Notes under the pieces: model-generated | What the model was told of the DNA's origin: nothing | Database searches by the model: none | What the model saw: only the letters and a program-made list of their open reading frames with translations | Shown: positions 11,502 through 32,928 of the stretch, one piece after another | Layout of the letters: each line of letters starts with the position of its first letter | Numbering within the stretch: the stretch's first letter is position 1 | Position numbers and translations under genes: made by a program | Assembly (NCBI GenBank): GCA_005798445.1 | Contig: SYJG01000526.1 | Coordinates: forward strand, 1-33,584 | Source of the DNA: Planctomyces sp. | GTDB lineage: Bacteria; Planctomycetota; Planctomycetia; Planctomycetales; Planctomycetaceae | DNA: 33,584 bases | Direction of reading: 5' to 3'

Positions 11502-11561
11502 TTGGTAATTCAAGAGACATTGGTGACTCCTCCGAAACGAGATTGGTCTGACGCGGCGTGA
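10544..11561 (+). pseudogene. ISAzo13-family transposase remnant (N and C parts, middle deleted)
   Basis: The first frame (10544-10876) carries the N-terminal domain: LDEQQRRWVVALESEQWGHG, ITGLHPETVRRGRQEL, PGAGRPVVEKK. A shift of one base at the A7G run (10846-10852) joins it to EPQLEQTLTKLVEPV, which ends at 10902. The next frame starts with GTG at about 10899: VNAHDFPHDA, VPYGVYDL, LLIEADAGGSNG, HDPTGASKWNPIEHRVFG and WNYTIKPRS, all from the C-terminal half of the catalytic domain. Roughly 170-200 residues between LVEP and VNAHDF are absent. The C-terminus has lost its stop and reads through the right inverted repeat to 11561. It cannot be an active transposase. Confidence 0.85.
10846..10852 (+). 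promoter_or_regulatory. Slippery heptamer A_AAA_AAG in the transposase gene
   Basis: The seven bases are in the exact phase of a canonical -1 ribosomal frameshift site (codons GAA AAA AAG). Slipping back one base continues into the frame encoding EPQLEQTLTKLVEPV, which is what the family has at this place. It is either a programmed frameshift signal or an A-tract deletion; no stimulatory stem was verified. Confidence 0.45.
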
Positions 11562-16147: not shown

Positions 16148-17197
16148 TTAGTGCTCCACCACAGCCTCCCACACGGTGAGACCGACGAGCAAAAACACGC
16201 CGACGATGCCGATCCAGACGCTGGCTTCGGTGAAGCGGAGTCGCTTGCGAATCCAGGTGTCGATGAACGGCCAGGCGAACATCACGAAGACGATGAAGCC
16301 GGTACTCAGCACGGCGAACGTGCCGGAGAACAGCTTCAGCCAGCGGAATGAAACGTAGAACCACCACTCCGGCTTGATGACTTCTGGCGTCGTCAGCGGG
16401 TCGGCCTGCGGGCCGAGCGTCACGGGCAGCACCGTCGCCAGCACGCTGAGCACGATCATCAGGATCAACCCGATGATGAGTTCCGTGTAGAAGTGGTCGG
16501 GGAAGAAATCGAAGTGCTGCGGCGTTTCGGGAGGCTCATTCTCGAAGCGGAACTCGGTCACCCCTTGCAGTCGCAGGATCGCGACGTGAATCCCGATCAG
16601 CAGAATCATCAGCCCCGGCAACACGGCCGCGTGCAGGATGAAGAACCGCGACAGCGTGTTGTCGTTGTACGACTCACCCGCCAGCAGCATCTTCTTCGCC
16701 AGCCCACCGACGAACGGAACCGTGTCGCAGATGTTCGCCGCTACGGTCGCTCCCCAAAAGCTGAGCTGCTCGAACACGAGGCTGCACCCCGTGAAGCCGA
16801 CGATCAGCGTACACATCAGCAAGCACATGCCGATCATCCAATTGATCTCGCGCGGCTGCCGATACGCGCCGGTGAAGTAAACACGCATCTGATGCAAGAT
16901 CACGGCCGCGATCATCAACGTCGCCGCCCACTTGTGCATCCCGCGGATGTACCAACCGAACGCCACCTGATTCGTGATCGCGTCGATCGACTGATACGCC
17001 GTCTGCGGAGACGGCTGGTAATAAAACGCGAGCAAGATCCCGGTCACGATCTGCACGACAAACAGATACGCTGGCGTCCCGCCCAGACAAAACCACCAAT
17101 GCCGCAAGTGCGACGGCACCGGCTCGTTGGTCAGTTCTTCCAACTGCACACCGCTGATGGGAAGCCGCTCAGCAAACCAGCGTTTGATCGCGTTCAT
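16148..17197 (-). CDS. Cytochrome b (b6 plus subunit IV fused) of a Rieske/cytochrome b complex
   Basis: 349 residues, about eight membrane helices. The four heme-b histidines are H88 and H102 (RGMHKWAATLMIAAVILHQM) and H189 and H204 (FFILHAAVLPGLMILLIGIH). C37 in HWWFCLGGTPAYLF is at the place of the cytochrome b6 cysteine that holds the extra heme c(i). The quinol-site PEWY motif appears as PEWWFY (276-281), in the part matching subunit IV. The protein takes electrons from quinol and passes them to the Rieske protein. It starts inside the Rieske stop (ATGA overlap), so the two form an operon; no cytochrome c1/f gene follows, but the octaheme cytochrome comes next on this strand. Confidence 0.93.
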   Translation of the reverse strand: MNAIKRWFAERLPISGVQLEELTNEPVPSHLRHWWFCLGGTPAYLFVVQIVTGILLAFYYQPSPQTAYQSIDAITNQVAFGWYIRGMHKWAATLMIAAVILHQMRVYFTGAYRQPREINWMIGMCLLMCTLIVGFTGCSLVFEQLSFWGATVAANICDTVPFVGGLAKKMLLAGESYNDNTLSRFFILHAAVLPGLMILLIGIHVAILRLQGVTEFRFENEPPETPQHFDFFPDHFYTELIIGLILMIVLSVLATVLPVTLGPQADPLTTPEVIKPEWWFYVSFRWLKLFSGTFAVLSTGFIVFVMFAWPFIDTWIRKRLRFTEASVWIGIVGVFLLVGLTVWEAVVEH

Positions 17198-17709
17198 ACC
17201 AGCGCCTCCATCGGCACTTCGATGAACAGCAGGCCGTTCTCAACCTTGAGCGGATACCTCGGCAGCGGCTTGTTGGAATCCTTCGGCGGCCCCGACGTCG
17301 GCTGCCCCTGTTTGTCGAACGCTCCGTTGTGGCACGGGCAAAAGAAGCGATCGTTGTTCGCCTCCCAATGCACCGCACATCCGAGGTGCGGGCACACGCT
17401 CGACAACGCAACAAAGTCCTCCGGCGTCCCTTTGTCCGCCAGCCGAGTCACCACAATCTTCTGCCCGGCCGGAGCCTCATAGGTCACGGACTCACCCACG
17501 GCGAAGCTGCCGAGGTCCGCCAGAAACTGCCACGTCCGCGACGCAGCCTTCGCCGGATAAAGAAAAAAACCAATCACCGTCCCGAACATGCCGTAGCCGA
17601 GTGTCAGTCCGAAGGCCATCGCAGCGGACGACAACTTTGCGACGAATGATCGCCGAGTTGGTTCAGCGAACGGAGAGTCGCAACCAGATTGGTTTCCGTG
17701 GGTGGTCAT
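17194..17709 (-). CDS. Rieske iron-sulfur protein
   Basis: 171 residues. A twin-arginine motif (TRRSFVAKLSSAAMAFGLTL, from residue 18) precedes one membrane segment (32-50). The [2Fe-2S] ligands are C106/H108 in CPHLGC and C124/H127 in CPCHNG; C111 and C126 form the usual disulfide. It carries electrons from quinol to a periplasmic acceptor, working with the cytochrome b encoded directly downstream. The start has no strong ribosome site. The 220-base gap to the divergent hydrolase gene contains the promoters for both. Confidence 0.93.
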   Translation of the reverse strand: MTTHGNQSGCDSPFAEPTRRSFVAKLSSAAMAFGLTLGYGMFGTVIGFFLYPAKAASRTWQFLADLGSFAVGESVTYEAPAGQKIVVTRLADKGTPEDFVALSSVCPHLGCAVHWEANNDRFFCPCHNGAFDKQGQPTSGPPKDSNKPLPRYPLKVENGLLFIEVPMEALV

Positions 17710-17930
17710 GTCTCACGCAAAGGCAGATCGTGTGCCGATCGACTCGTGATCCGACTCGGTCGCTTGCGCCGCAGAGAATGATCGAGCGTGGCCGAAGGAG
17801 ACGTCGAATTCGCGCGCCGACTTGTGTGCCGAATCGCTCATCTGTGCCGCGATCGCCCAGCGGGTGAGCCAACGACAGGCGATGAGCCATCTTGACATGA
17901 CCACGAAAAACAGCGCACAACCCGCTCACG

Positions 17931-20322: not shown

Positions 20323-20408
20323 GTCGGTGGGCTTTCGATGGCGGGAAATTGTTTCGCAGCCTGAAAAGCAAACTGCATGCCGCCAAACATTGAGGATTCG
20401 GAGAACGG

Positions 20409-21124: not shown

Positions 21125-22249
21125 TCAATGCCTCTCTGGCAGCGTGATGACGATTTCTGTTCCCCCTGTTCCTGAGTCGCTCACTGTGATCTGTCCGCCG
21201 TGTTCGTCGATGATCCGTTTGCTGATCGCCATACCGAGGCCGGTGCCGGTTGGTTTCGTCGTGAAGAACGGCTCGAAGATTTTCGCACGCTGTTCAGGAG
21301 TCATGCCGGGGCCGTTGTCGGCGAGGGAAAGTTGCAAGGCCGGGTGGCCATCGAGATTGATCGGTTTCCAAGTGACCTCGATTCGCACTGGATCAGCGCA
21401 CGCGGCCAGCGAGTTCTCGAAGATGTTGCGGAAGACCTGTTCGAGGCGACTGGCATCGACCGAACAACGCGGTGATGTCTCGGACTTCGGCAGATTGAAC
21501 GAGACGTGACGACCTTGTCGGGACCAAACCAGGTTATCCCAAGTCTCTTCGAGCACATCGCGGAGGTTATGTTCGGCTCGTTGCAGTTTGATCGGAGCGG
21601 CGTAGTTGCGGACTTCCTCAAACAGTTCATGCAGTTTCTTCTGGGCCTTCTGCACGCGCGCGACCAAGTCCAGCGAGTCCTGCTGACCTTGCAGATTGAG
21701 ACTGAGCATCTCCAAGCAGGCTTCGCCGCGCTGCAGCGCGTTACGGCTTTCGTGAACCAGTCCGGTCATCATCTGGCCGATGGCCGCGAGCCGTTCGGCT
21801 TGCAGCATGCGCGCGTTCGCGGCCTTCAGCGCGAGTTCCGCCTGCCGCTTCTCGGCCAGTTGCCGCAGGCGATTGCGGAGTGTGTCGGCATCGACCGGCT
21901 TGATGAGATAATCGGAAGCTCCATTGCGAAGCGCGGCAATCGCTCCGGTCAAATCCTCGTAACCAGTGACGACCACGATGGCCGCCTGCGGAGCGAGTTG
22001 TCGCAGTTGCGGCAGAAAAGTTTCCGAGTTGCCGTCCGGAAGTTTGCGGTCAAGCACAATCGCGAAGTACTCATCCCACCGTGCTTCTCGTTGTGCTTGG
22101 CTGAAAGTCTCGGCGGCCTGCACGCGGTAGCCGTCCATTTCGAGGATGTCGGTCAAGTTGCTGCGCGTGTCGGGGTCATCTTCCACGACGAGCAGCGACA
22201 GCGACCCCAAGACGTCGCGATCAGGAGTCTCGACCGTGTGTTGAGGCAT
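21125..22249 (-). CDS. REC-histidine kinase hybrid
   Basis: 374 residues. An N-terminal receiver domain (about 17-130, phospho-acceptor D67 in IVLDRKLPDG, K117 in LIKPVD) is followed by a coiled region, a HisKA domain with H166 in LVHESRNALQ, and a HATPase domain (NIFENSLAACA, DNGPGM, GTGLGMAISKRIIDEHGG). There is no membrane segment or classic sensor domain; phosphorylation of its receiver probably controls the kinase. It lies downstream of the double-receiver gene, separated by the repeat element 22291-22603, and belongs with the signalling cluster that includes the globin kinase and the NtrC-type activator. Confidence 0.9.
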   Translation of the reverse strand: MPQHTVETPDRDVLGSLSLLVVEDDPDTRSNLTDILEMDGYRVQAAETFSQAQREARWDEYFAIVLDRKLPDGNSETFLPQLRQLAPQAAIVVVTGYEDLTGAIAALRNGASDYLIKPVDADTLRNRLRQLAEKRQAELALKAANARMLQAERLAAIGQMMTGLVHESRNALQRGEACLEMLSLNLQGQQDSLDLVARVQKAQKKLHELFEEVRNYAAPIKLQRAEHNLRDVLEETWDNLVWSRQGRHVSFNLPKSETSPRCSVDASRLEQVFRNIFENSLAACADPVRIEVTWKPINLDGHPALQLSLADNGPGMTPEQRAKIFEPFFTTKPTGTGLGMAISKRIIDEHGGQITVSDSGTGGTEIVITLPERH

Positions 22250-22290: not shown

Positions 22291-22603
22291 AAAAGTAACC
22301 CGAAGCGTGAGTTTTGAAGTTACGCTGTTTTCAGCCCCGAAGGGGGCGGAACTCGAAAGCCCAGGGCGAAACCCTGGGTTTCGAGCATTTGAGATTCGAA
22401 AAGCCCTGAAGGGGCGAGACTCATTTTGTCGCGCCCCTTCGGGGCTTATGGTCTTGAAACTGCCCGTTTCCCAGGGCTGCGCCCTGGGCTTTCGAGTCTC
22501 GCCCCCTTCGGGGCTAAGACCTGCGCAACTTCAAGAAGCGCGAGCGAGGGCGAATTCCACGCTGGATTGTCCGACGCCCTCGCTCACGCTTCGGGTTACT
22601 TTT
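22291..22603. repeat. 313-base palindromic element with perfect 21-base terminal inverted repeats
   Basis: The ends AAAAGTAACC...GCGTGAG (22291-22311) and its exact complement (22583-22603) match over 21 of 21 bases. Inside, further pairs match, including a near-perfect stretch of over 45 bases built from AGCCCCGAAGGGGGCG, ACTCGAAAGCCCAGGG and CCCTGGG, so the whole element can fold on itself. It fills the gap between two signalling genes, and its right end supplies the TAA stop (22596-22598) of the double-receiver gene. It looks like a non-autonomous mobile or REP-type element. Confidence 0.85.
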
Positions 22604-23351
22604 GTGGTCTCGTCCAGCGTTGCAGCGTATCCAGAAATTCGGCCATTTCGAGCGGCTTGTAGAAAAAGACGTCCACGCCGTGAAGCGAGTTGTGCTCCAG
22701 TCGGTCGGTCAATTCGTGGCGATATCCGGTCAGCAGCATGGTCCTCGAATGCGGGTGTCGGTTGTGAATGTCTTCCAAGAGTTTCAGGCCGTCGGCATCC
22801 GGGAGCCGCCAATCGACGAGCACGATGGGAAACTCCTGGCGATTCATTTGCTGAGCCGCTTCCTGGGCCGACTCCGCGATGGCGACTCGGAACGATCGCT
22901 CACGCAGGACATCGTACAGACTGGCACAGAAGTCGTGATCGTCATCCACGATCAGCAACAGCGGTTGCTCGGCCGCTTCGGAGATCAAGGGCAATAGCGC
23001 CGGGACATCCACCGGTTTGGGCAGGATGCGCCACACGCCGAGTTGTTCTGCTCGCTCGCGCGTCTCGGCGTCCGCGAAGCCGGTGATCAAGATCGCGACC
23101 GTGGACGGCGAGCGGCGTTTCAGCTCGCGATAGAGCTGCAGGCCATCCATGCCGGGCATTTTCAAATCGAGCAACACGATGTCGAACGCCTGTTCGTCCA
23201 GAGTGCGCAGCGCGGTCGAGGCATCGGGAGCGGTTCGCACGTCGTAGCCGATGTCGGACAAGATGTCCGCCAAATTGGCGCAGGTGTCGAGGTCATCGTC
23301 CACAACCAACAATCGAGCCGACCGTTGAGTCGTCGCAGGTGAGTTGTTCAT
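22596..23351 (-). CDS. Double-receiver (REC-REC) response regulator
   Basis: 251 residues with two complete receiver domains and no output domain. Domain one is about 12-125 (acid pair VVDDD, phospho-acceptor D62 in LLDLKMPGMDG, K112 in PKPVD). Domain two is about 131-247 (VDDDHD, D180 in LVDWRLPDADG, K in FYKPLE). Such proteins relay or sink phosphate between kinases. It sits between the REC-histidine kinase and the globin kinase/NtrC genes. The stop codon lies inside the repeat element's right end, so the C-terminus may have been trimmed, although the second domain is complete. A sigma-54-like site is at 23535-23549, about 185 bases before the start. Confidence 0.9.
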   Translation of the reverse strand: MNNSPATTQRSARLLVVDDDLDTCANLADILSDIGYDVRTAPDASTALRTLDEQAFDIVLLDLKMPGMDGLQLYRELKRRSPSTVAILITGFADAETRERAEQLGVWRILPKPVDVPALLPLISEAAEQPLLLIVDDDHDFCASLYDVLRERSFRVAIAESAQEAAQQMNRQEFPIVLVDWRLPDADGLKLLEDIHNRHPHSRTMLLTGYRHELTDRLEHNSLHGVDVFFYKPLEMAEFLDTLQRWTRPQK

Positions 23352-23815
23352 GGGAGGTCAATCCGGTTGGGCGAGCCGTCGGGGTGAGCATTGTGAACAC
23401 TCACAGACGTGATGATGACTCGCGAGGTGGGAGTAGAACTGAAGAGGGAGTGTCGAAGCAACGAACGCGGATGAGAGTCGGAGACAGGCAGGTCTGCCAG
23501 ATTTGGCAGTCGTAAGGAGGGTGGTCGCAACATCGCGAAGTCCGTGCCAATTCCAAATTGATGTTGAGCGAGACGTGTGCATGTCCGCTCGCAACGAGCG
23601 ATGTTGGCACAGAAATCACGGCAACGACATCCTCCTCAGACCAGAACGGCGTCATCTCGCGAGTCAGCTGGAGGTTCTTGGGGGATGGTGGCCGGTTTCA
23701 CGCGGTCATTTTTGTTGGCCAACAGTCAGCATACATCCCGCGCCGTTTGGCACATCAATGGTTTCTGAGTACCTTGCCCTTCCCTCATTGAAATGTTTGC
23801 ACGGCCAATATCTCC
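23352..23815. other. Non-coding spacer between divergent signalling genes
   Basis: About 460 bases with no convincing gene. It must hold the promoters for the double-receiver gene (minus) and for the small membrane protein/globin kinase pair (plus). Apart from the sigma-54-like site listed separately, I see no strong palindrome. TGGCCAACAGTCAGC at about 23716-23730 has the right GG/GC spacing on the plus strand but matches the consensus poorly. Confidence 0.5.
23535..23549 (-). promoter_or_regulatory. Possible sigma-54 promoter upstream of the double-receiver gene
   Basis: Minus-strand TGGCACGGACTTCGC differs from the consensus TGGCACG-N4-TTGC at one base and has GG and GC ten bases apart. 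The long distance (about 185 bases) to ATG 23351 lowers confidence. Confidence 0.35.
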
Positions 23816-24088: not shown

Positions 24089-25285
24089 GTGGCGTTCGAC
24101 CTGCGAGTGGATGAGCTTTTTGAACGGTATCAAGACCTTCAACGCTACGTTGGCTGGACGCCAGCCGACGCGGAGCGTGTGCGTCGAGCGGCACCACTGG
24201 TCGAGTCGTCGTTTCCAGAGTTGGTGGACGACTTCTACCGCGAGATCGCCGAGCATGACGCGACGCGCAAAGTGATTACCGGCGGTGATGCACAGGTCGA
24301 ACGGCTGAAGGGAACATTGCGAGCGTGGCTCCAGGAACTCGTCACTGGCCCGTATGACATTCAGTTCGTTGAACGTCGCTTTCGTGTCGGCTATCGGCAC
24401 GTCGAGATCGGTCTGAAGCAGATCTACGTTGAAGCCGCCGTCTCCCGGTTGCGAAATGGGTTGCAGCGTGTGCTCCGGCTCAATTGGCCTGCCGGGGGTG
24501 ATCTCACGGAACTGGCTGAGACGACGCGGTCCATGAATGCGCTGCTGGATCTCGACTTGGCGATCATCCAGGACGCCTATGAGACGGCCACGAATGACCG
24601 CTTGATGCGTGTGGAGCGGCTGGCGGCCATCGGCCGCGTCGCGGGCGGGGTCGCTCACGAGTTACGGAATCCGCTCAACGTGATGCGTACTTCGATCTAT
24701 TTTCTGCGAAACGCGAAGAGCGCGACTCCGGAGAAAATTGCCGAACACTTGCAGCGAATCGAACGGCAAGTCGGAGTGTCGGACTCGGTGATCTCGGCCT
24801 TGTCCGAATTCGCAAAGTTGCCGTCGGCGAATCTACAACCGCTGTCTATTCTCGACTGCCTCAAGAGATCGGTGCCAATCGACTCCTGGCCGGAGAGCGT
24901 GGAACTGGTGTGGGACATCCCAGCGAACTTGCCGCACGCTCTGGCCGATGAAAAGCAAATGCTCATCGTCTTCGGCAATTTGATCCGCAATGCGTGCGAC
25001 GCGATGCCCAACGGCGGACGATTGACGTTCTCGGCACGGCACCTGCAAGACCACATCGAGGTTGCAGTGACCGACACTGGCTGTGGCATCAAGGCAGAAG
25101 ACTTGCCTCGTATCCACGAGCCATTTCGTTCGACCAAAGCGCGCGGCATCGGATTGGGCTTGGCGATCTCTTTCGCCATTCTCGAAAAGAATAGCGGCAC
25201 GCTGAACGCCGTCAGCGAAGCCGGTCACGGCAGCACATTCACGGTAGTGCTGATGGCCGAAGAACGTCGTCGGGCCACTCCGTGA
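24089..25285 (+). CDS. Globin-coupled sensor histidine kinase
   Basis: 398 residues. Residues about 15-165 are a protoglobin (globin-coupled sensor) domain: YVGWTPADAERV, SFPELVDDFYREIAEHD and RRFRVGYRHVEIGLKQIYVE. H104 in VGYRHVEIGL matches the family's proximal heme histidine. A coiled linker leads to HisKA (H190 in GGVAHELRNPLNVM) and HATPase (NLIRNACDAMPNGG, DTGCGIK, GIGLGLAIS). Such kinases bind heme and respond to O2, CO or NO, and no membrane segment is present, so it should sense dissolved gas in the cytoplasm. The start is GTG 24089 with AAAGGGTG upstream. It is convergent with the NtrC-type activator gene, its most likely partner. Confidence 0.88.
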   Translation: MAFDLRVDELFERYQDLQRYVGWTPADAERVRRAAPLVESSFPELVDDFYREIAEHDATRKVITGGDAQVERLKGTLRAWLQELVTGPYDIQFVERRFRVGYRHVEIGLKQIYVEAAVSRLRNGLQRVLRLNWPAGGDLTELAETTRSMNALLDLDLAIIQDAYETATNDRLMRVERLAAIGRVAGGVAHELRNPLNVMRTSIYFLRNAKSATPEKIAEHLQRIERQVGVSDSVISALSEFAKLPSANLQPLSILDCLKRSVPIDSWPESVELVWDIPANLPHALADEKQMLIVFGNLIRNACDAMPNGGRLTFSARHLQDHIEVAVTDTGCGIKAEDLPRIHEPFRSTKARGIGLGLAISFAILEKNSGTLNAVSEAGHGSTFTVVLMAEERRRATP

Positions 25286-25339
25286 CTCGCGACGAGTGAT
25301 GCGATCTTCGTCCCCACGCCGGCCTCATACGACGGCCGG

Positions 25340-26746
25340 CTAACCAGTCTGCGAGGGTGCGCCGTCGAGGTCGTATTTCTCAAGCAACCGGTAGAGCGAC
25401 CGGCGTGAGATGCCCAGCACTTGAGCCGCGCGGCTTTTGTTGTATTTTTGTTTCTGCATGACCTCGACGACGCGAGCTTTCTCGATTGCGGACAGCGTTC
25501 CGTCGTCGGCTAATGCGGCCAGGATTGTTGTCACAGCGACCGCTGCTCCGGCCGTTGTCGTTGGATGCAGCACGATGGCCGGCAGTTCGTCGGTTGTGAT
25601 GAAGTGGTCTTCCGCGAGGATCTTCGCCCGCTCGATGACATTGATGAGCTGCCGAATATTGCCCGGCCAGTTGTACGCTTCCAAGGCTCGCAGCGCGTCG
25701 GGAGCAATCTGCCAATCACTTCCCAGGAAGTGATTCACGAGAAGAGCAATATCGCCTGCTCGAACTCGCAGCGGCGGCAGGTCGAGCGACATGACGTTGA
25801 TGCGGTAGTACAAGTCTTCGCGGAAACGATGATCGGCGACTTCGGTGGCGAGGTCGCGGTTCGTCGCAGTGATGACTCGCACGTTGACGCGACGCTCTTG
25901 CAGCGAGCCGACGCGGCGCATCGAACCGTCTTGCAGCACTCGCAACAGTTTCGCCTGCATGACACCGGGCATCTCGCCGATTTCGTCGATGAACAGCGTG
26001 CCGCCATTGGCGATTTCAAACAGACCGGGCTTGGCGGCGACGGCACCCGTGAACGCGCCCTTTTCGTGGCCGAAGAGTTCACTTTCGAGCAGCGTCTCGG
26101 TCAGTGCGGTGCAGTTGATTGAGATCAGCGGCTTAGCGGCTCGCGAGCTGTGCTCGTGCAATGAGCGGGCGACTAACTCTTTGCCGGTGCCGCTTTCGCC
26201 TTGGATCAAGATCGCTTTGTCGCTGGGGCCGGCTTTCGCAATCAGCTTGAAAACCTCCTGCATCGCGGGCGATTCGCCAATCATCCGCACCTTCGGCTGA
26301 TTTCGTTCGAGCACCGCCTTGAGCTGCACATTTTCTTGGCTGATCTGCCGTCGCTCGTATGCCTTTTGGATCAGCGTTTCGAGTTCCGCGAGCGAGAACG
26401 GTTTCGAGAGGAAGTCATACGCCCCGAGTTTCATGGCTTGCACGGCCGTCTCGACCGTCCCTTGGCCAGTCAGCAGGATGACTTCGCATTCCGGCGACAG
26501 TTCTTTGACACGTTGCAGCAAGTCAATGCCCGTTAGTCCCGGCATCGACATGTCGGACACGACGACATCGAACTGGCGATCTTGCAACAGCCGCAGCGCA
26601 TCATTGACTCCGGGAGCTTGTTGCACTTGAAACCCACGGCGAACGAAGCGCCGCGCGGCGGTGTCACGAAACTCATCGTCGTCATCGACGAACAGGAGTT
26701 CGACTTGGCTGGGATCGAAGGCGCTTTTCAAAGAGTCATCACTCAT
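25340..26746 (-). CDS. NtrC-family sigma-54-dependent response regulator
   Basis: 468 residues in the standard order: receiver (about 15-130, D65 in VVVSDMSMPG, K115 in LSKPFS), central AAA+ domain (about 155-385) and a Fis-type helix-turn-helix (about 425-462, NKSRAAQVLGISRRSLYRLL). The ATPase has Walker A GESGTGKE (183-190), the sigma-54 contact loop GAFTGA intact (230-235) and Walker B LFIDEIGE. When phosphorylated it should form a ring and open promoters bound by sigma-54 RNA polymerase. Four candidate promoters of that type lie in the next 6 kb, each before a stress gene. Its gene converges with the globin kinase. Confidence 0.95.
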   Translation of the reverse strand: MSDDSLKSAFDPSQVELLFVDDDDEFRDTAARRFVRRGFQVQQAPGVNDALRLLQDRQFDVVVSDMSMPGLTGIDLLQRVKELSPECEVILLTGQGTVETAVQAMKLGAYDFLSKPFSLAELETLIQKAYERRQISQENVQLKAVLERNQPKVRMIGESPAMQEVFKLIAKAGPSDKAILIQGESGTGKELVARSLHEHSSRAAKPLISINCTALTETLLESELFGHEKGAFTGAVAAKPGLFEIANGGTLFIDEIGEMPGVMQAKLLRVLQDGSMRRVGSLQERRVNVRVITATNRDLATEVADHRFREDLYYRINVMSLDLPPLRVRAGDIALLVNHFLGSDWQIAPDALRALEAYNWPGNIRQLINVIERAKILAEDHFITTDELPAIVLHPTTTAGAAVAVTTILAALADDGTLSAIEKARVVEVMQKQKYNKSRAAQVLGISRRSLYRLLEKYDLDGAPSQTG

Positions 26747-26763
26747 GACGGGTCTTTCCCAAT

Positions 26764-26878
26764 TTGGAGTGCGGCGACCGGAGTCGCCGCTTTTCTATTC
26801 GCGTCGTTCGCTCAAATCGTCACCGAGAATGTCTTCAACACGTTTTGAAAAGCGACGGCTTGGGCCGTCGCACTCCAA
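26764..26878. repeat. Paired hairpins forming an inverted repeat
   Basis: Left arm 26764-26795 carries GCGGCGAC-CGGA-GTCGCCGC and right arm 26847-26878 carries GCGACGGC-TTGG-GCCGTCGC. Both are perfect 8-base-pair stems with four-base loops, flanked by matching TTGGAGT and GAAAAG in inverted order. Stem differences between the arms are paired changes. Same design as 18931-19012. It lies between the universal stress protein gene and the NtrC gene and may end transcription of the former. Confidence 0.8.
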
Positions 26879-26886
26879 GACTTCGA

Positions 26887-27327
26887 TTAGTCTGATCGTT
26901 TCAGAACCAGAACTTCGCACGGCGAGTGTCGCAAAACCGATTCAGTGACGGAACCTAGCAGAAAACGTTTAACGCCGTGGTAGCCATGCGAGGGCATGAC
27001 AATCAAGTCTGCATGAGCCTCGGCCGCGAATTCGGCAATACGAGCCCCAGCATTCCCTTCCAAGACTTTTGAGCACACACCCGCGAACTGCGGACGTGAA
27101 TTCAGGTAATCAGCCAGATGCGTATTGGCGAGTTGCAGCCAACGCTCCGGCTCGACCGCGGCAATCACTTCTCCCGCGTAGGGGACGAAGTTGGGAACCA
27201 GAGCCACATGAACCACATGGACCTCTCCCGGTTGTCGAGTCATTTCCAAGGCCGTCTGAATGGCTTCGTCCGATGCGGAGGAGAAGTCGATCGGCACGAT
27301 CACTCGTTTCTTGGGGAACCAAGACAT
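26887..27327 (-). CDS. Universal stress protein (UspA family)
   Basis: 146 residues, one Usp domain. N-terminal VIVPIDFSSASDEAIQTALE and the ATP-binding signature near the end (MPSHGYHGVKRFLLGSVTES, then SPCEVLVLK) match the G-2x-G-9x-G(S) pattern of ATP-binding Usp proteins. These are dimeric cytoplasmic proteins induced by starvation, hypoxia and other stress. AGGAG eight bases before ATG 27327 supports the start. A strong sigma-54 promoter candidate lies at 27386-27400. It is divergent from a second usp gene at 27905. Confidence 0.92.
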   Translation of the reverse strand: MSWFPKKRVIVPIDFSSASDEAIQTALEMTRQPGEVHVVHVALVPNFVPYAGEVIAAVEPERWLQLANTHLADYLNSRPQFAGVCSKVLEGNAGARIAEFAAEAHADLIVMPSHGYHGVKRFLLGSVTESVLRHSPCEVLVLKRSD

Positions 27328-27385
27328 GATGATTGCTCCTATTTTTTTTGATGCGACGAAATGGATGAGCCGCCCACCGTCTTAG

Positions 27386-27400
27386 GCAAAGGCCGTGCCG
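27386..27400 (-). promoter_or_regulatory. Sigma-54 promoter of the leftward usp gene
   Basis: Minus-strand CGGCACGGCCTTTGC matches TGGCACG-N4-TTGC at all fixed positions but the first, with GG-N10-GC spacing. The GC is 59 bases before ATG 27327. Confidence 0.65.
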
Positions 27401-27449
27401 ACGTTTATTGGGGCGCAGAGTGATGTTTGCGCCTTCTCTGCGCTCTTTG

Positions 27450-27492
27450 CTTCTCCGCGGTGAAAGAAAACACACGATTCACCGCGGAGAAG
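27450..27492. repeat. Palindrome with 15-base arms
   Basis: CTTCTCCGCGGTGAA (27450-27464) and its exact complement (27478-27492) are separated by 13 bases, and similarity extends outward with mismatches (CTCTTTG/TGAAGAG). It is probably a dispersed repeat, though it lies 50-100 bases upstream of the leftward sigma-54 site, where an activator could bind. Confidence 0.7.
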
Positions 27493-27721
27493 TGAAGAGC
27501 ACAGAGAACACTGTGTCTCCATCAGCGCAAAGATCAATCTGTGCGCCAATAACCGCCTCGCCATCGGCGTGCGCGCCCACGCGGGTGGCGTTGGGGTCAA
27601 GCAATTCACGCGACCTTCGCGCGATGAGTGTGCGGCTGAGTGGGTCAATGTGCGGAGCTGTCACAAATAGTGCGTGCGAATCCGCTCAAAGCGGCCGTGG
27701 TTCTGCGACTGGAGCGCACGT

Positions 27722-27823
27722 GGCTCGCGTGCGATGGCTTGTCGTTTGTGCGTTCGCGAACCGCACTCGGCCGCACTCGGCCGCACTCGGCCGCACTCGG
27801 CCGCACTCGGCCGCACGCGAGCC
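27722..27823. repeat. 10-base tandem array inside 12-base inverted repeats
   Basis: CCGCACTCGG is repeated five times without change from 27761 to 27810, followed by a partial sixth copy. GGCTCGCGTGCG (27722-27733) and its complement (27812-27823) bracket the array. The unit length is close to one turn of DNA. The array ends about 30 bases before the sigma-54 site at 27840. Confidence 0.85.
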
Positions 27824-27839
27824 GCGTGCACCGCGCCTT

Positions 27840-27854
27840 TGGCATCGCGCTTGC
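27840..27854 (+). promoter_or_regulatory. Sigma-54 promoter of the rightward usp gene
   Basis: TGGCATCGCGCTTGC, followed by A, keeps TGGCA and TTGCA with exact GG-N10-GC spacing. The GC is 51 bases before ATG 27905. Confidence 0.7.
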
Positions 27855-27904
27855 AAGGTCATTGGCCAAGACCCACTCACTTCGTTTAGGAAAGGACGGC
27901 TATC

Positions 27905-28360
27905 ATGCTCACGCTCAAGAGGATTCTGTGCCCGGTCGATTTCAGCGAACTCAGCTTGAACGCACTGACGTTCGCGGTCGATCTGGCATCCAAGTTTCAA
28001 GCGGAACTGCATCTGCTGCATGTCTTCGAGGGCTACGATGCGATCTCGTTGAACCCAGAGACGGCGATGATTCCGATGCCGCAGTGGCTCACTGAACTGC
28101 GGAAGGTTTGTCACGAAAAGCTCGCGGCTCTGCCGAATGCAGACCTCGCCGCACGTTGTCCCTCGATCGTGCGAGCACATCGCGAAGGCCCGGCCATCCA
28201 CGAAATTCTCGAATACGCGGCGCACCAAAAGATCGACCTGATCGTGTTGGCGACTCACGGCCGCACCGGGATCAAGCATCTCTTGATGGGCAGCGTCGCA
28301 GAGAACGTCGTCCGCAGCGCCAGTTGTCCGGTCCTCACCATTCGAGGGACCGGCTCGTAG
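27905..28360 (+). CDS. Universal stress protein (UspA family)
   Basis: 151 residues. ILCPVDFSELSLNALTFAVD opens the fold and the ATP-binding signature THGRTGIKHLLMGSVAENVV plus SCPVLTIR closes it. AGGAAAGGA lies shortly before ATG 27905. The acyl-CoA synthetase starts 38 bases after the stop, so the two are probably one transcript driven by the sigma-54 site at 27840. It resembles the mini-Usp at 30537-30737 more than the Usp at 26887-27327. Confidence 0.93.
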   Translation: MLTLKRILCPVDFSELSLNALTFAVDLASKFQAELHLLHVFEGYDAISLNPETAMIPMPQWLTELRKVCHEKLAALPNADLAARCPSIVRAHREGPAIHEILEYAAHQKIDLIVLATHGRTGIKHLLMGSVAENVVRSASCPVLTIRGTGS

Positions 28361-28398
28361 CGCTGTCCCCTGACCGTTTGGTGAATTGGAACCAGAAC

Positions 28399-30531
28399 AT
28401 GGGCGTGCGGAACCTCGACGCAATCTTCCGACCAAGCAGCGTGGCCGTGATCGGCGCGAGCAACTCCGTTGGTTCCGTCGGAGCTACGCTCTGGCAAAAC
28501 TTGGCGAGCAGCGGATTCACCGGCGACGTCTTTCCGATCAATCCCAAACATGACTGTGTGCAAGGCACACGAGCGTTCGCTTCCACCAAGCAGGTTCCGC
28601 AAGCGATCGACTTGGCGGTGATCTGTGTGCCGGCTCCGGCGGTTCCGAGTGTCGTGCGCGAATGCGGCGAAGCGGGCGTGCGTGGCGTGATCATCATCTC
28701 CGCCGGGTTTCGTGAAGTGGGCACGGCCGGTCGCGAGTTGGAAGAGGCCGTGCAGCGTGAAGCCGTTCGGTTTGACGGACTGCGCATCGTCGGACCAAAT
28801 TGCTTGGGAGTGATCGTCCCCGAACTGCGGCTCAGCGCCAGTTTCGCGGCGGGAATGCCGCAGCCGGGGCGAGTCGCGCTGCTGTCGCAATCGGGAGCGT
28901 TGTGTACCGCGATCCTCGATTGGGCCATTGAGCAACAGATCGGGTTCTCGGCGTTCGTGTCGGCAGGCAACATGCTGGACGTCAGCATGGCCGACCTCAT
29001 CGACTACTTCGCGGCCGACCCGCAGACCGAGTCGCTGATTCTCTACATCGAATCGCTCAATCACTCGCGAGATTTTCTGTCCGCCGCGCGAGCCTTCGCT
29101 CGGCACAAGCCGATCGTGGCCTACAAGGCGGGGCGGTTCGCCGAGTCCGCTCAGGCTGCGGCCTCGCACACCGGAGCGCTCGCGGGCGTCGATGCTGTTT
29201 ACGAAGCGGCCTTCCGTCGAGCAGGCATCGAGCGCGTGTTTTCCGTGGACGACCTGTTCGACTGCGCCGAACTGCTGGCTCGACAAAGTCCGCCGCGAGG
29301 GCCACGGCTGGCCATCGTCACGAACGCCGGCGGCCCCGGCGTGATGGCGATCGATGTGCTCATGGAGCAACGCGGGCAACTCGCAAAGTTGTCTGCTGTG
29401 ACGATGGAACGGCTCAATCGGGCACTGCCGCCGCACTGGTCGCACAACAATCCGGTCGATGTGCTCGGCGACGCGACGCCGGAACGATACGCGACCGCGC
29501 TTGAGGCGGTCCTCGCCGACGAGGGAGTGGATGCCGCGCTAATTGTCCTCACCCCGCAGGCGATGACCGAACCGACACGCATCGCTCAGCTCGTCGCTGC
29601 CACTGCGAACCGGCATCGCAAACCGCTGCTCGCGGCTTGGATGGGCGGGGCGATGGTCCGTGAAGGCCATCAAGTCCTGCACGAGTCCGCGATCCCGACT
29701 TACACCTCGCCCGAACAGGCCGTGCGAGCCTTCATGCACTTGGTCTCGTATGCGGCCCGGCGCGAGCTACTGCATGAGATGCCTCGCGATATGCGGATCA
29801 CCTGGCCTCGCGATCGAACGGCGATTCGGCAGGAGTTCCTGACGCGGTTCAAAGGGCAGGCTCCGTCAACATTCTTTTCGGAAGACGACTCGAAAGCACT
29901 GCTCGCGGAATACGGTATTCCCGTCAGCCAGCCGATCGCTGCCACGACAGCCGATGAAGCGGTTGAGGTCGCGCGGCGAATCGGCTTCCCGGTCGTGATG
30001 AAGATTCGTTCGCCCGACATCACGCACAAGACGGACGTCGGCGGTGTGGCATTGAACCTGACAATCGAATCCGAAGTGCGAAGCGCCTTCAACCAGATGC
30101 TCGCTTCGGTGAAATCCAAACGCCCTGACGCGGTGATCGACGGCGTGACGTTGCAGCCGATGATCACCGCCGCTCGTGGTGTCGAGTTGCTTGTCGGAGC
30201 CAAGCGCGATCCGGTGTTCGGTTCCGTGCTGCTCGTCGGAGCGGGCGGCGTCATGGCTGAACTGCTGCAAGACCGAACATTGGAACTGCCACCACTCGAT
30301 GAGCGGTTAGCTCGGCGGATGTTGGAGAGCCTGCGCGTGTGGCCGCTGCTGCAAGGCTATCGCGGCCGGCCGGGCGTGGACGTCGAGCGGCTGATCGAGG
30401 TCTTGATTCGATTCTCGTTTCTCGTGACCGATTGGCCGGAACTCAGCGAGATCGACATCAACCCGCTACTGGTCACCGCCGATCGGCTGATCGCGTTGGA
30501 CGCGCGCATGCGCTGGCTTTCGGTGCCGTAG
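28399..30531 (+). CDS. ADP-forming acetyl/acyl-CoA synthetase, alpha-beta fusion
   Basis: 710 residues, the usual length of the fused form. Order: CoA-binding domain (about 5-100, PSSVAVIGASNSVGSVGATL), succinyl-CoA-synthetase-like domains (about 130-450) with the phospho-histidine motif AASHTGALAG, and a C-terminal ATP-grasp domain (about 490-705, GFPVVMKIRSPDITHKTDVG). It makes ATP from acyl-CoA and ADP plus phosphate, a substrate-level step useful when respiration is limited. The start is ATG 28399, where similarity begins; the open frame extends further left inside the usp gene but is not protein-like there. Same operon as the upstream usp gene. Confidence 0.9.
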   Translation: MGVRNLDAIFRPSSVAVIGASNSVGSVGATLWQNLASSGFTGDVFPINPKHDCVQGTRAFASTKQVPQAIDLAVICVPAPAVPSVVRECGEAGVRGVIIISAGFREVGTAGRELEEAVQREAVRFDGLRIVGPNCLGVIVPELRLSASFAAGMPQPGRVALLSQSGALCTAILDWAIEQQIGFSAFVSAGNMLDVSMADLIDYFAADPQTESLILYIESLNHSRDFLSAARAFARHKPIVAYKAGRFAESAQAAASHTGALAGVDAVYEAAFRRAGIERVFSVDDLFDCAELLARQSPPRGPRLAIVTNAGGPGVMAIDVLMEQRGQLAKLSAVTMERLNRALPPHWSHNNPVDVLGDATPERYATALEAVLADEGVDAALIVLTPQAMTEPTRIAQLVAATANRHRKPLLAAWMGGAMVREGHQVLHESAIPTYTSPEQAVRAFMHLVSYAARRELLHEMPRDMRITWPRDRTAIRQEFLTRFKGQAPSTFFSEDDSKALLAEYGIPVSQPIAATTADEAVEVARRIGFPVVMKIRSPDITHKTDVGGVALNLTIESEVRSAFNQMLASVKSKRPDAVIDGVTLQPMITAARGVELLVGAKRDPVFGSVLLVGAGGVMAELLQDRTLELPPLDERLARRMLESLRVWPLLQGYRGRPGVDVERLIEVLIRFSFLVTDWPELSEIDINPLLVTADRLIALDARMRWLSVP

Positions 30532-30536
30532 CCGAG

Positions 30537-30737
30537 TCATTGGTTTCGCACGGTGAGCACCGGACATGTGGCATAGCGGACGATGTTCTCGGCCACGCTT
30601 CCAAGCAACATGTGCTTGACGCCCCGTCGGCCGTAAGTCCCTTGGACAATGAGGTCGATGTTGCTGGCATAGCGAATCGCGTTCTCGCTGAATTCACAGA
30701 AATCAGTCGGACAGAGAATGCTGTGCAGTTTGACCAT
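30537..30737 (-). CDS. Mini universal stress protein with a large internal in-frame deletion
   Basis: 66 residues instead of about 145. The first 20 (MVKLHSILCPTDFCEFSENA) are a normal Usp start. From residue 28 the sequence jumps to the normal Usp end: IDLIVQGTYGRRGVKHMLLG, then SVAENIVRYATCPVLTVRNQ. About 80 middle residues (beta 2 to beta 3 and their helices) are absent, yet the frame is open and AAAGGA lies seven bases before ATG 30737. It could be a decayed copy or a small protein that pairs with full Usp proteins. It ends six bases after the synthetase gene, convergent with it. Confidence 0.75.
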   Translation of the reverse strand: MVKLHSILCPTDFCEFSENAIRYASNIDLIVQGTYGRRGVKHMLLGSVAENIVRYATCPVLTVRNQ

Positions 30738-30775
30738 GATGGGTTCCTTTCAACAAATGGAATCCGAATTCGCGC

Positions 30776-30847
30776 AGGCGAGCCGGGCGGCGTTCGCCCC
30801 CGGACAGCGATGGTGTGGTCCGGGGGCTAACGCCGCCCGGCTCGCCT
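30776..30847. repeat. Long hairpin with 30-base arms
   Basis: The arms 30776-30805 and 30818-30847 match over 29 of 30 bases (AGGCGAGCCGGGCGGCGTT, then GCCCCCGGAC) around a 12-base loop. It lies between the stop of the cytochrome c' gene and the start of the mini-Usp gene, both on the minus strand, so it could terminate or weaken transcription between them. GC-rich planctomycete-style repeat. Confidence 0.85.
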
Positions 30848-30869
30848 CGGTCACACACGCACCGGACCA

Positions 30870-31379
30870 CTAACGACCCGGACGATCGGCGATTAAGTTG
30901 GCTCTGGTCCATTTGTGACACTCGATGCACTGCATGGTCGCCTCCAACCACGTCAGTGCGGACGCTTCGAGCTTTCCGTCCTTGGCGTTCTTGGAGAGCC
31001 GCTTGGTGATTTTCAGGAAGTCATTGCTGTGCTCACGAAAGAAAGGATCGTTTGTGACGCGCCACTTCTCAGCAGCGCTCATGTCTTCCAGCCTGGCGGC
31101 TCCCTCTTGGATCAACTCGAAGTCCTCCAGAGCCAACCCCGCCAGGATTTTCTGCGAGGCATCCAGCTTCCTCCGCATGAAGATTGAGATTCCCTTTCGA
31201 ACGGGAGTGGCCTTCTCGTCGTCCTTCTGCGGAGCCTTCGCGGCATCCTTCTTCTGAATCGGCTCGGCCTTCTTTGGCGGCTGAGTCTCCTGCGTTGCGG
31301 CGAACTGTGTCATTGTCAGACCCCCAGCGCCAATCAACGCGACGGCCAATGCGCTCCAACCCCATCGAGCCGCCTTCAT
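30870..31379 (-). CDS. Cytochrome c'-like secreted heme protein
   Basis: 169 residues. A signal peptide/anchor (WGWSALAVALIGAGGLTMTQ) is followed by a charged linker rich in K, P and E (30-60) and a helical domain ending in CIECH (151-155). A single heme site at the C-terminal end of a four-helix-size domain is the plan of cytochrome c', which binds NO and CO and protects against NO. The start at ATG 31379 has AAAGGAG seven bases before it; the open frame extends to 31538 but that part is not protein-like. A sigma-54 site is at 31430-31444. Confidence 0.8.
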   Translation of the reverse strand: MKAARWGWSALAVALIGAGGLTMTQFAATQETQPPKKAEPIQKKDAAKAPQKDDEKATPVRKGISIFMRRKLDASQKILAGLALEDFELIQEGAARLEDMSAAEKWRVTNDPFFREHSNDFLKITKRLSKNAKDGKLEASALTWLEATMQCIECHKWTRANLIADRPGR

Positions 31380-31429
31380 CACAAGTCTCCTTTGGAAGAG
31401 TGAGACACCGAACACGCTGAGTCTGTTTG

Positions 31430-31444
31430 GCAAACGGTGTTCCA
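31430..31444 (-). promoter_or_regulatory. Sigma-54 promoter of the cytochrome c'-like gene
   Basis: Minus-strand TGGAACACCGTTTGC keeps TGG, AC and TTGC with GG-N10-GC spacing. The GC is 51 bases before ATG 31379. Confidence 0.65.
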
Positions 31445-31510
31445 TGCGCGGCCAAGTCACAAATTCGCCCGTGGAAGATCCGCGTTGTTGAATTCGCCCG
31501 ACCTGTCTGA

Positions 31511-31541
31511 GCGGTGCCGCACAATTCAGACGCGGCACCGC
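31511..31541. promoter_or_regulatory. Inverted repeat, candidate activator-binding site
   Basis: GCGGTGCCGC (31511-31520) and its exact complement (31532-31541) are 11 bases apart, centred about 107 bases upstream of the expected transcription start of the cytochrome c'-like gene, a usual distance for NtrC-type enhancer sites. Confidence 0.4.
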
Positions 31542-31567
31542 ACAGTGCGCGGTCGCTCACGGGTGAG

Positions 31568-32863
31568 TCAGCCGATCAGACTGTGAGTCCGCAAGGCAGC
31601 GCAGGCGGCTTCGATCATCGCAGCGCCGGGATCGCCGGTTTCGATGGTGAAATGAAACCGCCCGCTGAATTCCGAGGCGGGTTCCCAGTGGTCTCGCACA
31701 AGCTGGTAGACCGACCAATCGGCATCGGAAGGATCGCCATGACGCGACAGCAATCGCTGCTGCACGACGTCGTCGGGAGCGATGCATTCCAGCCAGATGG
31801 CTCGCACGCCGCAGTCGAGCGCCAGTTGCAAGAATCTGTGACGGAGCGATTCTCGCTGAAATGTGGCATCGACGATGACTCGGCCGCCGGCCAGCAATCG
31901 CTTGCGAGCGCGGCACCAGCATTCGTCGTAGGTTCGCTCGGTACGGTCGGCTGAGTACAAGTCCGCGGAACTGCCAGACGCTGCGGATTTGGCACCGAGG
32001 TCTTTGCGGACGACATCGGTGCGCAGCACCTCGTCGAAGTGAACCGCATTGCCCAATGCCCGCGACAGTGTTGATTTGCCGGTGCCGGGCAGACCGCTGA
32101 CCAGGACCAAGGCCGGGCAGCGGCTGGGTTCATCCAACTCCGACAAACACCACAGCCAGTGTGCTCGCGAACGTGCCAGCGCTTCGTCGCGATCGGGATG
32201 CGGGATCTCCGATTCGCCGCCGAGAATGGCCGCCACTTTGGCTCGCACTGCCGAGCGATACGCGGCGAACAACGGCAACAAACTGCGGCCGGTGTCGTCA
32301 TTCGTTTCCGAGAAGTAAACCTCGGCGACGATTCGCGCCAGATCGTGGCGGCCGGCGAAGGACAGCTCCATCACCAGAAAGGCGATGTCGGCGACCACGT
32401 CGATGCGCCGCAAGCCGGGATCGAATTCAATGCCGTCGAGGATCACGACGTCATTGGGCGGTGCTCGGTCGGGAAATAGAAAGACGTGCTCCAGCCTTAA
32501 GTCGCCGTGCAGATCGCGAACTCGCCCGTCGTTTGCTCGCCGCCGCAACGTGTCGTCGTGACGTTGCAGCCACTCGTCCGACAATGTCTCCAATCGTCGC
32601 AGCACCTGCGGTTCGATGACGTGCGGCTTCAGGCCGCGAGCGAGCTCCCAGTTCTCTCGCAGCTTGCGACGGAACTCTGCTTCAGCCTCGGTTGCTTGCT
32701 CGCCGACGCAACAACATGCCTGCCGATGAATCGCCGCGATCCGCTGAGCCGCTCGCACCAGATCGCGCGGTTCAAGCAATCCATGCTGCAACCGCGATCG
32801 CATGACCTCTTCCGTTGAGAGTTCCGGCGACGAATACAGAGAGACCGCTTGCGGAGAGTCCAT
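31568..32863 (-). CDS. Aminoglycoside-phosphotransferase-like / AAA kinase fusion protein
   Basis: 431 residues. The first half is APH-like: catalytic loop HGDLRLEHVFLF (about 119-130) and metal site LDGIEFDPGLRRIDVVADIA (about 142-161). The second half is a P-loop kinase domain with Walker A SGLPGTGKSTLS (about 255-266) and VIVDATFQRESLRHRF. Proteins of this type (COG2187 plus COG0645) are usually about 510-520 residues; here the first 80-100, including the small lobe, are missing. AAGAGG seven bases before ATG 32863 supports the short start. One such protein, Rv2004c, is in the mycobacterial DosR regulon. The substrate is unknown. Confidence 0.85.
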   Translation of the reverse strand: MDSPQAVSLYSSPELSTEEVMRSRLQHGLLEPRDLVRAAQRIAAIHRQACCCVGEQATEAEAEFRRKLRENWELARGLKPHVIEPQVLRRLETLSDEWLQRHDDTLRRRANDGRVRDLHGDLRLEHVFLFPDRAPPNDVVILDGIEFDPGLRRIDVVADIAFLVMELSFAGRHDLARIVAEVYFSETNDDTGRSLLPLFAAYRSAVRAKVAAILGGESEIPHPDRDEALARSRAHWLWCLSELDEPSRCPALVLVSGLPGTGKSTLSRALGNAVHFDEVLRTDVVRKDLGAKSAASGSSADLYSADRTERTYDECWCRARKRLLAGGRVIVDATFQRESLRHRFLQLALDCGVRAIWLECIAPDDVVQQRLLSRHGDPSDADWSVYQLVRDHWEPASEFSGRFHFTIETGDPGAAMIEAACAALRTHSLIG

Positions 32864-32913
32864 GACACAGCCTCTTGAAAGACGATCGAGAGCACAGTCC
32901 TCGAAGTCTGATC

Positions 32914-32928
32914 GCAAACACCGGTCCA
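32914..32928 (-). promoter_or_regulatory. Sigma-54 promoter of the APH/AAA gene
   Basis: Minus-strand TGGACCGGTGTTTGC keeps TGG, CG and TTGC with GG-N10-GC spacing. The GC is 51 bases before ATG 32863, the same distance as at the usp (27905) and cytochrome c' genes. Confidence 0.6.

Follow-up and report, generated by a model that had tools for sequence, protein, structure and literature searches.

Genes and promoter elements at the locus

The window, a stretch of 33,584 nucleotides (nt) from a draft genome of Planctomyces sp. (assembly GCA_005798445.1, contig SYJG01000526.1), contains the genes of a putative oxygen-responsive relay and, next to them, genes for universal stress (Usp), cytochrome-like, and energy-related proteins preceded by elements of the sigma-54 (-24/-12) type. 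An earlier note, made from the sequence alone, described the interval 24089..32928 as a sigma-54 regulon driven by a globin-type gas sensor. In the present study, we followed up that description in the window and in the corresponding loci of related genomes. The following four genes constitute the putative relay.

24089..25285, + strand, protoglobin histidine kinase (NmpU/AfGcHK-like; Pfam, PDB match, pocket residues)
25340..26746, - strand, NtrC-type sigma-54 activator (NmpR-like; Pfam, sequence, tree)
22596..23351, - strand, double-receiver protein (NmpT-like; two Response_reg stretches)
21125..22249, - strand, receiver-kinase (NmpS-like; Pfam Response_reg and HATPase_c; H-box VHESRNALQ located by eye)

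The histidine kinase with a protoglobin domain and the NtrC-type activator with an intact GAFTGA loop, both named in the earlier note, were confirmed. Pfam recognizes Protoglobin (E 7e-33), HisKA, and HATPase_c in the former, and Response_reg, Sigma54_activat, and HTH_8 in the latter, in which the loop reads GAFTGA. The closest PDB match of the globin is AfGcHK (5ohe, E 6.6e-28), and its Tyr50 and His104 align with Tyr45 and His99 of that protein; according to passages of PMC8697598, His99 is the haem ligand and Tyr45 the O2 contact. These two residues are kept in all 34 window-type kinases, in 7 of 7 fused ones (see below), and in 4 of 4 myxococcal ones, and among three outlying globins they are present in two, with a gap in the third. 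The window's protein has the defining feature of globin-coupled histidine kinases, a sensor globin that contains both the proximal His and the distal Tyr and is linked to a kinase. The double-receiver and receiver-kinase genes sit just outside the interval of the earlier note; at other planctomycete loci, they follow the globin kinase gene in a row. The receiver-kinase is predicted to be the direct kinase of the activator, and the double-receiver protein is predicted to be a phosphate sink.

The neighbouring genes of interest and the GG-N10-GC elements are as follows (distances to start codons are measured from the GC).

26887..27327, - strand, usp1 (Pfam Usp)
27386-27400, - strand, -24/-12 element of usp1, CGGCACGGCCTTTGC; 58 nt between GC and start codon
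27905..28360, + strand, usp2 (Pfam Usp)
27840-27854, + strand, -24/-12 element of usp2, TGGCATCGCGCTTGC; 50 nt between GC and start codon; also that of the acyl-CoA synthetase gene if co-transcribed
28399..30531, + strand, ADP-forming acyl-CoA synthetase (Pfam); 38 nt after usp2
30870..31379, - strand, cytochrome c'-like protein (CxxCH, four-helix bundle model)
31430-31444, - strand, -24/-12 element of the cytochrome c'-like gene, TGGAACACCGTTTGC; 50 nt from GC to start codon
31568..32863, - strand, APH/AAA-type kinase (Pfam AAA_33; alignment)
32914-32928, - strand, -24/-12 element of the APH/AAA gene, TGGACCGGTGTTTGC; 50 nt from GC to start codon
19036..20322, - strand, 428-residue protein with CxxCH, candidate regulon member (no Pfam match; site kept in 4 of 4 rows)
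20368-20382, - strand, -24/-12 element of the 428-residue gene; 45 nt upstream of the start (site scan and alignment)
23535-23549, - strand, -24/-12 element TGGCACGGACTTCGC; 183 nt upstream of the double-receiver gene

The four sites claimed earlier, before usp1, usp2, the cytochrome c'-like gene, and the APH/AAA gene, were found in place; the spacings of 59, 51, 51, and 51 given for them denote the same positions, counted to the first base of the codon. Two more elements were added, one before the 428-residue haem-motif protein and one before the receiver genes. The latter, TGGCACG-GACTTCGC, occurs in the form TGGCACG-NN-CTTCGC in five of seven aligned rows (one with CGG); of the two remaining rows, one lies outside the stretch taken and one is unalignable.

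The case for these elements rests on fixed position, strand, and conservation, and the bare consensus is no proof. When up to 3 mismatches are allowed, the window has only a few more matches to the loose consensus than expected (156 against a shuffle mean of 134; 3 of 100 shuffles as high). With one mismatch, it is not enriched in the draft genome (124 matches and 210 in the reversed control), and the genome-wide count was dropped as uninformative. When the score of the weakest of the window's own sites was taken as threshold, a strong element 40-65 nt before the start was found in 5 of the 32 window genes (usp1, usp2, cytochrome c'-like, APH/AAA, and 428-residue), a figure that is post hoc because of that threshold. 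The strand asymmetry in the other fetched loci is not post hoc: 33 of 948 genes carry such an element in the right orientation, and the opposite strand of the same stretch gives 5 of 948. Conservation in related genomes, a check that had been proposed earlier, was also found. In same-genus alignments, GG-N10-GC is kept before usp1 in 8 of 9 rows, before the cytochrome c'-like gene in 6 of 8, before the APH/AAA gene in 2 of 2, and before the 428-residue gene in 4 of 4, and the elements appear as conserved islands within diverged DNA. The element before the Rieske genes of three same-genus relatives is likewise kept (3 of 3).

Match to the NmpRSTU relay of Myxococcus xanthus

NmpRSTU of M. xanthus is an experimentally studied hypoxia relay. 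As passages of PMC6211767 and PMC11841059 describe it, NmpU is on in the presence of O2 and phosphorylates NmpS, by which NmpS, and so NmpR, is kept off. When O2 is low, NmpR receives phosphate from NmpS and acts at sigma-54 promoters. Against M. xanthus strain AM003, in which we assigned the nmp names by gene order and homology, the window's proteins are 33% (globin kinase, over 97% of the query), 31% (double receiver), 33% (receiver-kinase), and 45% (activator) identical, over most of their lengths; the M. xanthus genes stand in the order U-T-S with nmpR nearby. The window genes also have the domain plan of NmpT (two receivers) and of NmpS (a receiver-kinase hybrid), and the order U-T-S is present at other planctomycete loci. 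As the four window proteins match all members of NmpRSTU, this kind of system is already known. The view of the earlier note that the planctomycete version is undescribed thus has to be given up: NmpRSTU is published, nmpSTU homologs in Planctomycetes were named in 2018 in a passage of PMC6211767, and a link between Usp and sigma-54 is reported in a passage of PMC12316311.

The two systems share a protoglobin kinase, a double-receiver protein, a receiver-kinase, an NtrC-type activator, and sigma-54 promoters, as well as usp, CBS, hemerythrin, and cbb3 genes among the targets, which are predicted here and which, for NmpR, belong to the measured regulon (as given in a passage of PMC11841059). 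They differ in the operator (TGTGCGRNNYCGCACA here, GCGCA-N5-TGCGC published for NmpR), in the gene order of the window, and in the fused variant of other planctomycetes. Unlike that of NmpRSTU, the neighbourhood here contains cytochrome c', APH/AAA, and acyl-CoA synthetase genes, with no pil link seen, and the planctomycete relay is known from sequence alone. A Myxococcota metagenome-assembled genome (L273) contains an operon with cco-like gene lengths adjoining nmpR-like and nmpU-T-S-like genes, as judged by lengths only.

Predicted operator

Palindromic expectation maximization on the DNA upstream of the elements at eight ccoNO operons of relatives, all of which are preceded by GG-N10-GC, returned GTGCG-N4-CGCAC, with a log-likelihood of 49 as compared with 18-22 in three shuffled sets. 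In three of the eight upstream regions (one family), the best palindrome abuts the stop codon of the activator gene. A non-palindromic search on the same DNA was discarded; it returned the 3' end of the activator coding sequence because the sampled DNA held a gene end. Counts of 7-mers gave a lead (AGTGTGC, CGCACAC) and no proof. The unaltered cco matrix, for which the background is 0.06 matches above 10 bits per 300 bp, gave at least 11.0 bits in all eight usp1/usp2 intergenic regions of the genus and at least 10.4 bits in six of eight same-genus regions upstream of the cytochrome c'-like gene. We regard TGTGCGRNNYCGCACA as the likely operator, and binding of a palindrome of this type by the window's activator is a prediction. 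The sites in the window are as follows.

27628..27687, + strand, predicted enhancer-type operator region in the usp1/usp2 intergenic DNA, with RTGTGCGR repeated at intervals of about 22 bp; position kept in the genus
27674-27687, palindrome GTGCGAATCCGCTC, at the end of that region
31509..31560, - strand, predicted operators before the cytochrome c'-like gene; 21-23 bp apart, at least 65 bp upstream of -24
31509-31522, - strand, predicted operator GTGCGGCACCGCTC, upstream of the cytochrome c'-like gene
31530-31543, - strand, predicted operator GTGCGGTGCCGCGT, upstream of the cytochrome c'-like gene
31553-31560, - strand, predicted operator half-site GTGAGCGA, upstream of the cytochrome c'-like gene

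Among loci that belong neither to the genus nor to the training set, 20 of the 68 genes with a strong element have an upstream operator scoring over 11 bits, as do 15 of the 394 genes that lack such an element (nominal p 1e-9). Of about 200 palindromes made by permuting columns, none was as good. The independent events are fewer than 20 because divergent pairs share one operator. This comparison left out genes with short upstream DNA or element scores of 15-17.8, and some starts are mis-called (e.g., in L171, L174, L175, and L317), so that misses for single genes there may be false. Within the genus, the corresponding figures are 22 of 47 and 10 of 104. Operators are frequently arranged in tandem, and close pairs are 19-22 bp apart in 12 of 39 cases. 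A genome-wide search of the draft for the pattern GTGCGRNNYCGCWC gave 19 places, three of them outside called open reading frames (ORFs); 16 of the 17 places beyond the window are inside ORFs, and the two within it lie between genes, upstream of usp2 and of the cytochrome gene. Usp genes outside the cluster, and the assessable ones in congeners without the activator, have no operator except for one weak match of 11.3 bits. In the genus, an operator precedes the 428-residue gene in one of four upstream regions; in the window's copy, two weaker palindromes with a spacing of 42 bp lie at the very beginning of the coding sequence.

Proposed mechanism and alternative explanations

The four proteins, the promoter elements, and the palindrome are associated with one another across genera. 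We consider it likely that the window contains a counterpart of NmpRSTU beside sigma-54-type promoters of stress, cytochrome, and energy genes, and that it is switched on when O2 falls. We infer the phosphate flow, its polarity, and the signal by analogy with NmpRSTU. With O2 (or oxidized haem) on the protoglobin, the globin kinase would autophosphorylate and phosphorylate the receiver of the NmpS-like kinase, holding that kinase off, while the double-receiver protein would take phosphate as a sink. A drop in O2 would lift the block, and the NmpS-like kinase would then phosphorylate the activator. The activator would bind tandem TGTGCGRNNYCGCACA palindromes, with a centre-to-centre spacing of about 21 bp, at roughly 65-300 bp before the GG-N10-GC elements, and would open the sigma-54 polymerase at these promoters.

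This scheme retains one part of the earlier proposal, in which O2, nitric oxide (NO), or carbon monoxide (CO) bound by the globin kinase switches the activator. A sigma-54 regulon tied to the globin kinase has good support from the cis-elements and the neighbourhoods, but this kinase probably does not act on the activator directly; direct signalling was dropped because NmpS- and NmpT-like genes adjoin and because NmpRSTU provides a precedent. By the same precedent, the O2-bound globin kinase would keep the pathway off and low O2 would turn it on, contrary to gas binding as the activating signal. We found no support for NO or CO as physiological signals and rejected them. The Fe(II)-CO form of AfGcHK is reported active in vitro in a passage of PMC8697598.

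Several observations, in addition to the shared operators of divergent pairs, weigh against a counterpart of NmpRSTU acting at these promoters. The window's activator and NmpR, 45-47% identical, are not reciprocal best hits: another M. xanthus activator ties in the search with the window's protein (376.6 vs 376.5 bits), NmpR matches another activator of the window's own genome better (386 vs 375 bits), and the planctomycete and NmpR clades are not joined in the activator tree. The gene order in the window is not U-T-S, since the kinase gene (+) is divergent from T-S (-), and in most congeners the kinase and the activator are on different contigs. The published NmpR operator, GCGCA-N5-TGCGC, is not above chance in the window (29 matches and 53 in shuffles); outside the genus, its signal is weak overall (one mismatch, 6 of 68 genes with a strong element vs 4 of 394 without, p 0.001; two mismatches, 20 of 68 vs 75 of 394, p 0.07). 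The plain pattern of the operator proposed here, with three mismatches, is at chance in the window (30 vs 29.9), and the strict pattern GTGCGRNNYCGCWC has fewer matches in the genome than its reversed control has (21 vs 42). No operator was found upstream of the window's 428-residue gene, nor at the APH/AAA promoter (0 of 2 same-genus upstream regions; none within 450 bp in the window). An rpoN gene was not found in the window's draft genome, which is 90% complete; rpoN is present in 28 of the 30 genomes searched, including 10 of 11 congeners.

Three other explanations were considered. That sigma-54 promoters are driven here by another activator, the nearby globin relay controlling something else, seems unlikely to us, although it is the strongest of the three. 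Sigma54_activat is matched 15 times in the draft genome, in some cases over part of the domain, and one of these proteins is nearer to M. xanthus NmpR than the window's activator is. Moreover, the APH/AAA and 428-residue genes have an element without an upstream palindrome, and so does a second usp cluster in the genus, at G000 C307 (L329), G001 C188 (L326), G002 C112 (L334), and G010 C14 (L333), whose element (CGGAACGGCGTTCGC or close to it) is similar; this cluster is perhaps under another sigma-54 activator. On the other hand, the palindrome accompanies strong elements in loci that were fetched only for a kinase or an activator, and it is lacking, with the one exception given above, from usp genes outside the cluster or in genomes without the activator. 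Furthermore, a globin kinase or NmpS-like kinase lies within 3 genes of the activator at 7 of the 8 cco-type loci and within 10 genes at 20 of the 28 other loci outside the genus; these counts are conditional, because the loci were fetched through a kinase or activator match, and they are weakened to that extent as evidence for the relay.

The palindrome could instead be a site of a CRP/FNR-type regulator, acting beside sigma-54 or on other promoters. TGTGCG-N4-CGCACA does fit the half-site spacing of the CRP family, with TGTG-N8-CACA in the same frame. However, TGTGA-N6-TCACA is hardly enriched before strong elements (one mismatch, 2 of 68 vs 3 of 394; two mismatches, 14 of 68 vs 35 of 394, p 0.009), whereas TGTGCG-N4-CGCACA with two mismatches is strongly enriched (18 of 68 vs 10 of 394). 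Moreover, NtrC-type activators usually have tandem sites of this kind, spaced by about 20-22 bp and located upstream of -24. We therefore consider such a site improbable. It is hardly credible that the GG-N10-GC elements arose by chance from the high GC content of the DNA: the lack of genome-wide enrichment and the slight enrichment in the window would agree with it, but conservation as islands across species, the strand asymmetry at a fixed distance, and the linkage to the palindrome would not.

A fused form in relatives

In eight loci of relatives (L202-L209), a kinase of about 700 residues with an N-terminal protoglobin, a short receiver, and an activator are encoded ahead of a ccoNO-type operon; this arrangement is found by labels in seven of the eight, and in L202 the globin is in an open frame of 691 residues. 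In L205, Pfam recognizes a protoglobin-GAF-HATPase protein, a COX1-FixO fusion, FixP, FixG, FixH, and a copper-type ATPase, and the gene identities in the other fused loci rest on position and length. In the kinase tree, in which the deep branches are long and from which the myxococcal NmpU kinases are absent because the H-box pattern missed them, the cores of the fused proteins group with the NmpS-like kinases (100/99), apart from the window-type globin kinases (100/99). Whatever their wiring, the planctomycete activators group in a single clade of the activator tree (38 rows, 100/100). We found no description of the fused form in the accessible parts of the open-licence literature on planctomycete protoglobins with sigma-54, globin-coupled kinases, and cbb3 with NtrC, nor in that on globin-coupled histidine kinases with cbb3, which dealt with Myxococcus genes.

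We tentatively suggest, with somewhat less than even confidence, that these are two wirings of one oxygen circuit in planctomycetes, that the inverter was removed and the sensor flipped in the fused form, and that the same operator is read by both. In the window-type wiring, the globin would be on the upstream kinase, which is on with O2 and holds the second kinase off. In the fused wiring, the same globin, with the same Tyr and His, would be joined through GAF to the second kinase, with the activator before the cbb3 operon. Since low O2 has to activate both wirings, the same haem domain would have opposite effects on the two kinases, switching one on and the other off, and the O2 logic of the fused form would likely be inverted. 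If true, this would be a natural experiment in signal polarity, with one sensor domain on two kinases that answer O2 oppositely.

Relation to other known systems

The mycobacterial DosR regulon includes usp genes under haem kinases in hypoxia, with a haem-GAF kinase and a NarL-type regulator. The likeness to DosR drawn in the earlier note, which already named the regulators as unrelated, holds for gene content at most: usp genes under a haem kinase in hypoxia, predicted for the window, are common to both, but here the kinase has a protoglobin, the regulator is of the NtrC type, and the promoter type is unrelated. FixLJ controls cbb3 oxidase, and its haem kinase is turned off by O2. Like FixLJ, the fused form has a haem kinase next to a high-affinity oxidase that it is predicted to control, and it would be turned off by O2; unlike FixLJ, it has a protoglobin instead of a PAS haem domain and NtrC/sigma-54 instead of FixJ. 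In vitro work on globin-coupled kinases dates back to 2011, but it was not until 2025 that targets were reported, in a single myxobacterium. AfGcHK of Anaeromyxobacter (PDB 5ohe) shares with the window's kinase the globin with proximal His and distal Tyr, HisKA, HATPase, and a two-receiver partner, as far as passages of PMC8697598 describe it. Its targets are given as unknown in a passage of PMC11841059, in which FixLJ is also named, whereas here candidate targets adjoin the kinase.

Genes for Usp (COG0589) and NtrC-type regulators are enriched among the predicted sigma-54 promoters of Planctomycetia in PMC12316311. In its accessible text, this in silico regulon comes without a sensor, operator, or oxygen link, and the strings globin, hypox, and cytochrome do not occur. 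PMC6194562, in its accessible part, concerns aerotaxis. What is new here is the likely operator TGTGCGRNNYCGCACA, the predicted regulon, and the rewired fused form. A second phylum thereby gains a predicted target list and a testable operator for globin-coupled kinases, and the sigma-54-linked universal stress genes of planctomycetes, reported without a trigger in the earlier survey, gain a possible one.

Predicted target genes and regulon

The acyl-CoA synthetase gene has no strong element of its own in the site scan and likely belongs to the usp2 operon. The cytochrome c'-like protein matches no Pfam family; its CxxCH and modelled four-helix bundle agree with the label, and the predicted model matches cytochromes c' with Foldseek E values of 0.018 or worse and template-modelling scores to the target of about 0.6-0.8, which is weak support. 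In the APH/AAA protein, the AAA half of the earlier label is seen by Pfam and the APH half is not. Although its reading frame is kept, the gene encodes 109 residues fewer than a same-genus relative with 82% identity, apparently through an internal deletion near the N-terminus. A 66-residue Usp (30537-30737, - strand) has its start and end intact and its middle missing, and its domain is recognized by Pfam in the last third only. The shortening of both genes within one window may be genuine or may stem from the assembly.

Elsewhere, genes with both an element and an operator include those for two CBS proteins, a hemerythrin, a cytochrome c, an ANTAR regulator, a cytidylate kinase-like protein, an ATP-synthase beta-type subunit, and Usp and cytochrome c'-like proteins, as well as the cbb3 operon. 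The predicted regulon of Usp, CBS, hemerythrin, cytochromes, and cbb3 oxidase would overlap the measured NmpR regulon. The globin kinase, the activator, and the cytochrome gene occur together in 7 of 11 congeners and are jointly missing as close orthologs in the other four. Four congeners with the activator have 8, 10, 6, and 5 usp matches and four without it have 1, 1, 2, and 1, the latter also having smaller genomes. The gene for the ATP-synthase beta-type subunit (L188:5563-7014) has the strongest listed element (20.9) and a palindrome of 17.0 bits; an alternative ATPase under such control would be unusual.

The cytochrome b/Rieske operon of the window (16148-17709) was left out of the regulon, as its element is not kept in two aligned relatives. 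An element-like sequence (17723-17737) and an operator-like one (17826-17839) precede these genes, and neither is kept in the two relatives. In L076, L077, and L080, of the same genus, Rieske, cytochrome b, and cytochrome c' genes are close to the globin kinase, a conserved element lies 41-42 nt before the Rieske gene, and operator-like sites lie upstream. Between the predicted operator and the usp2 promoter, tandem GGCCGCACTC units were seen by eye at about 27768-27820. A Rhodopirellula-type transposase is encoded at 10899-11561 and matches the last 187 of the 308 profile positions.

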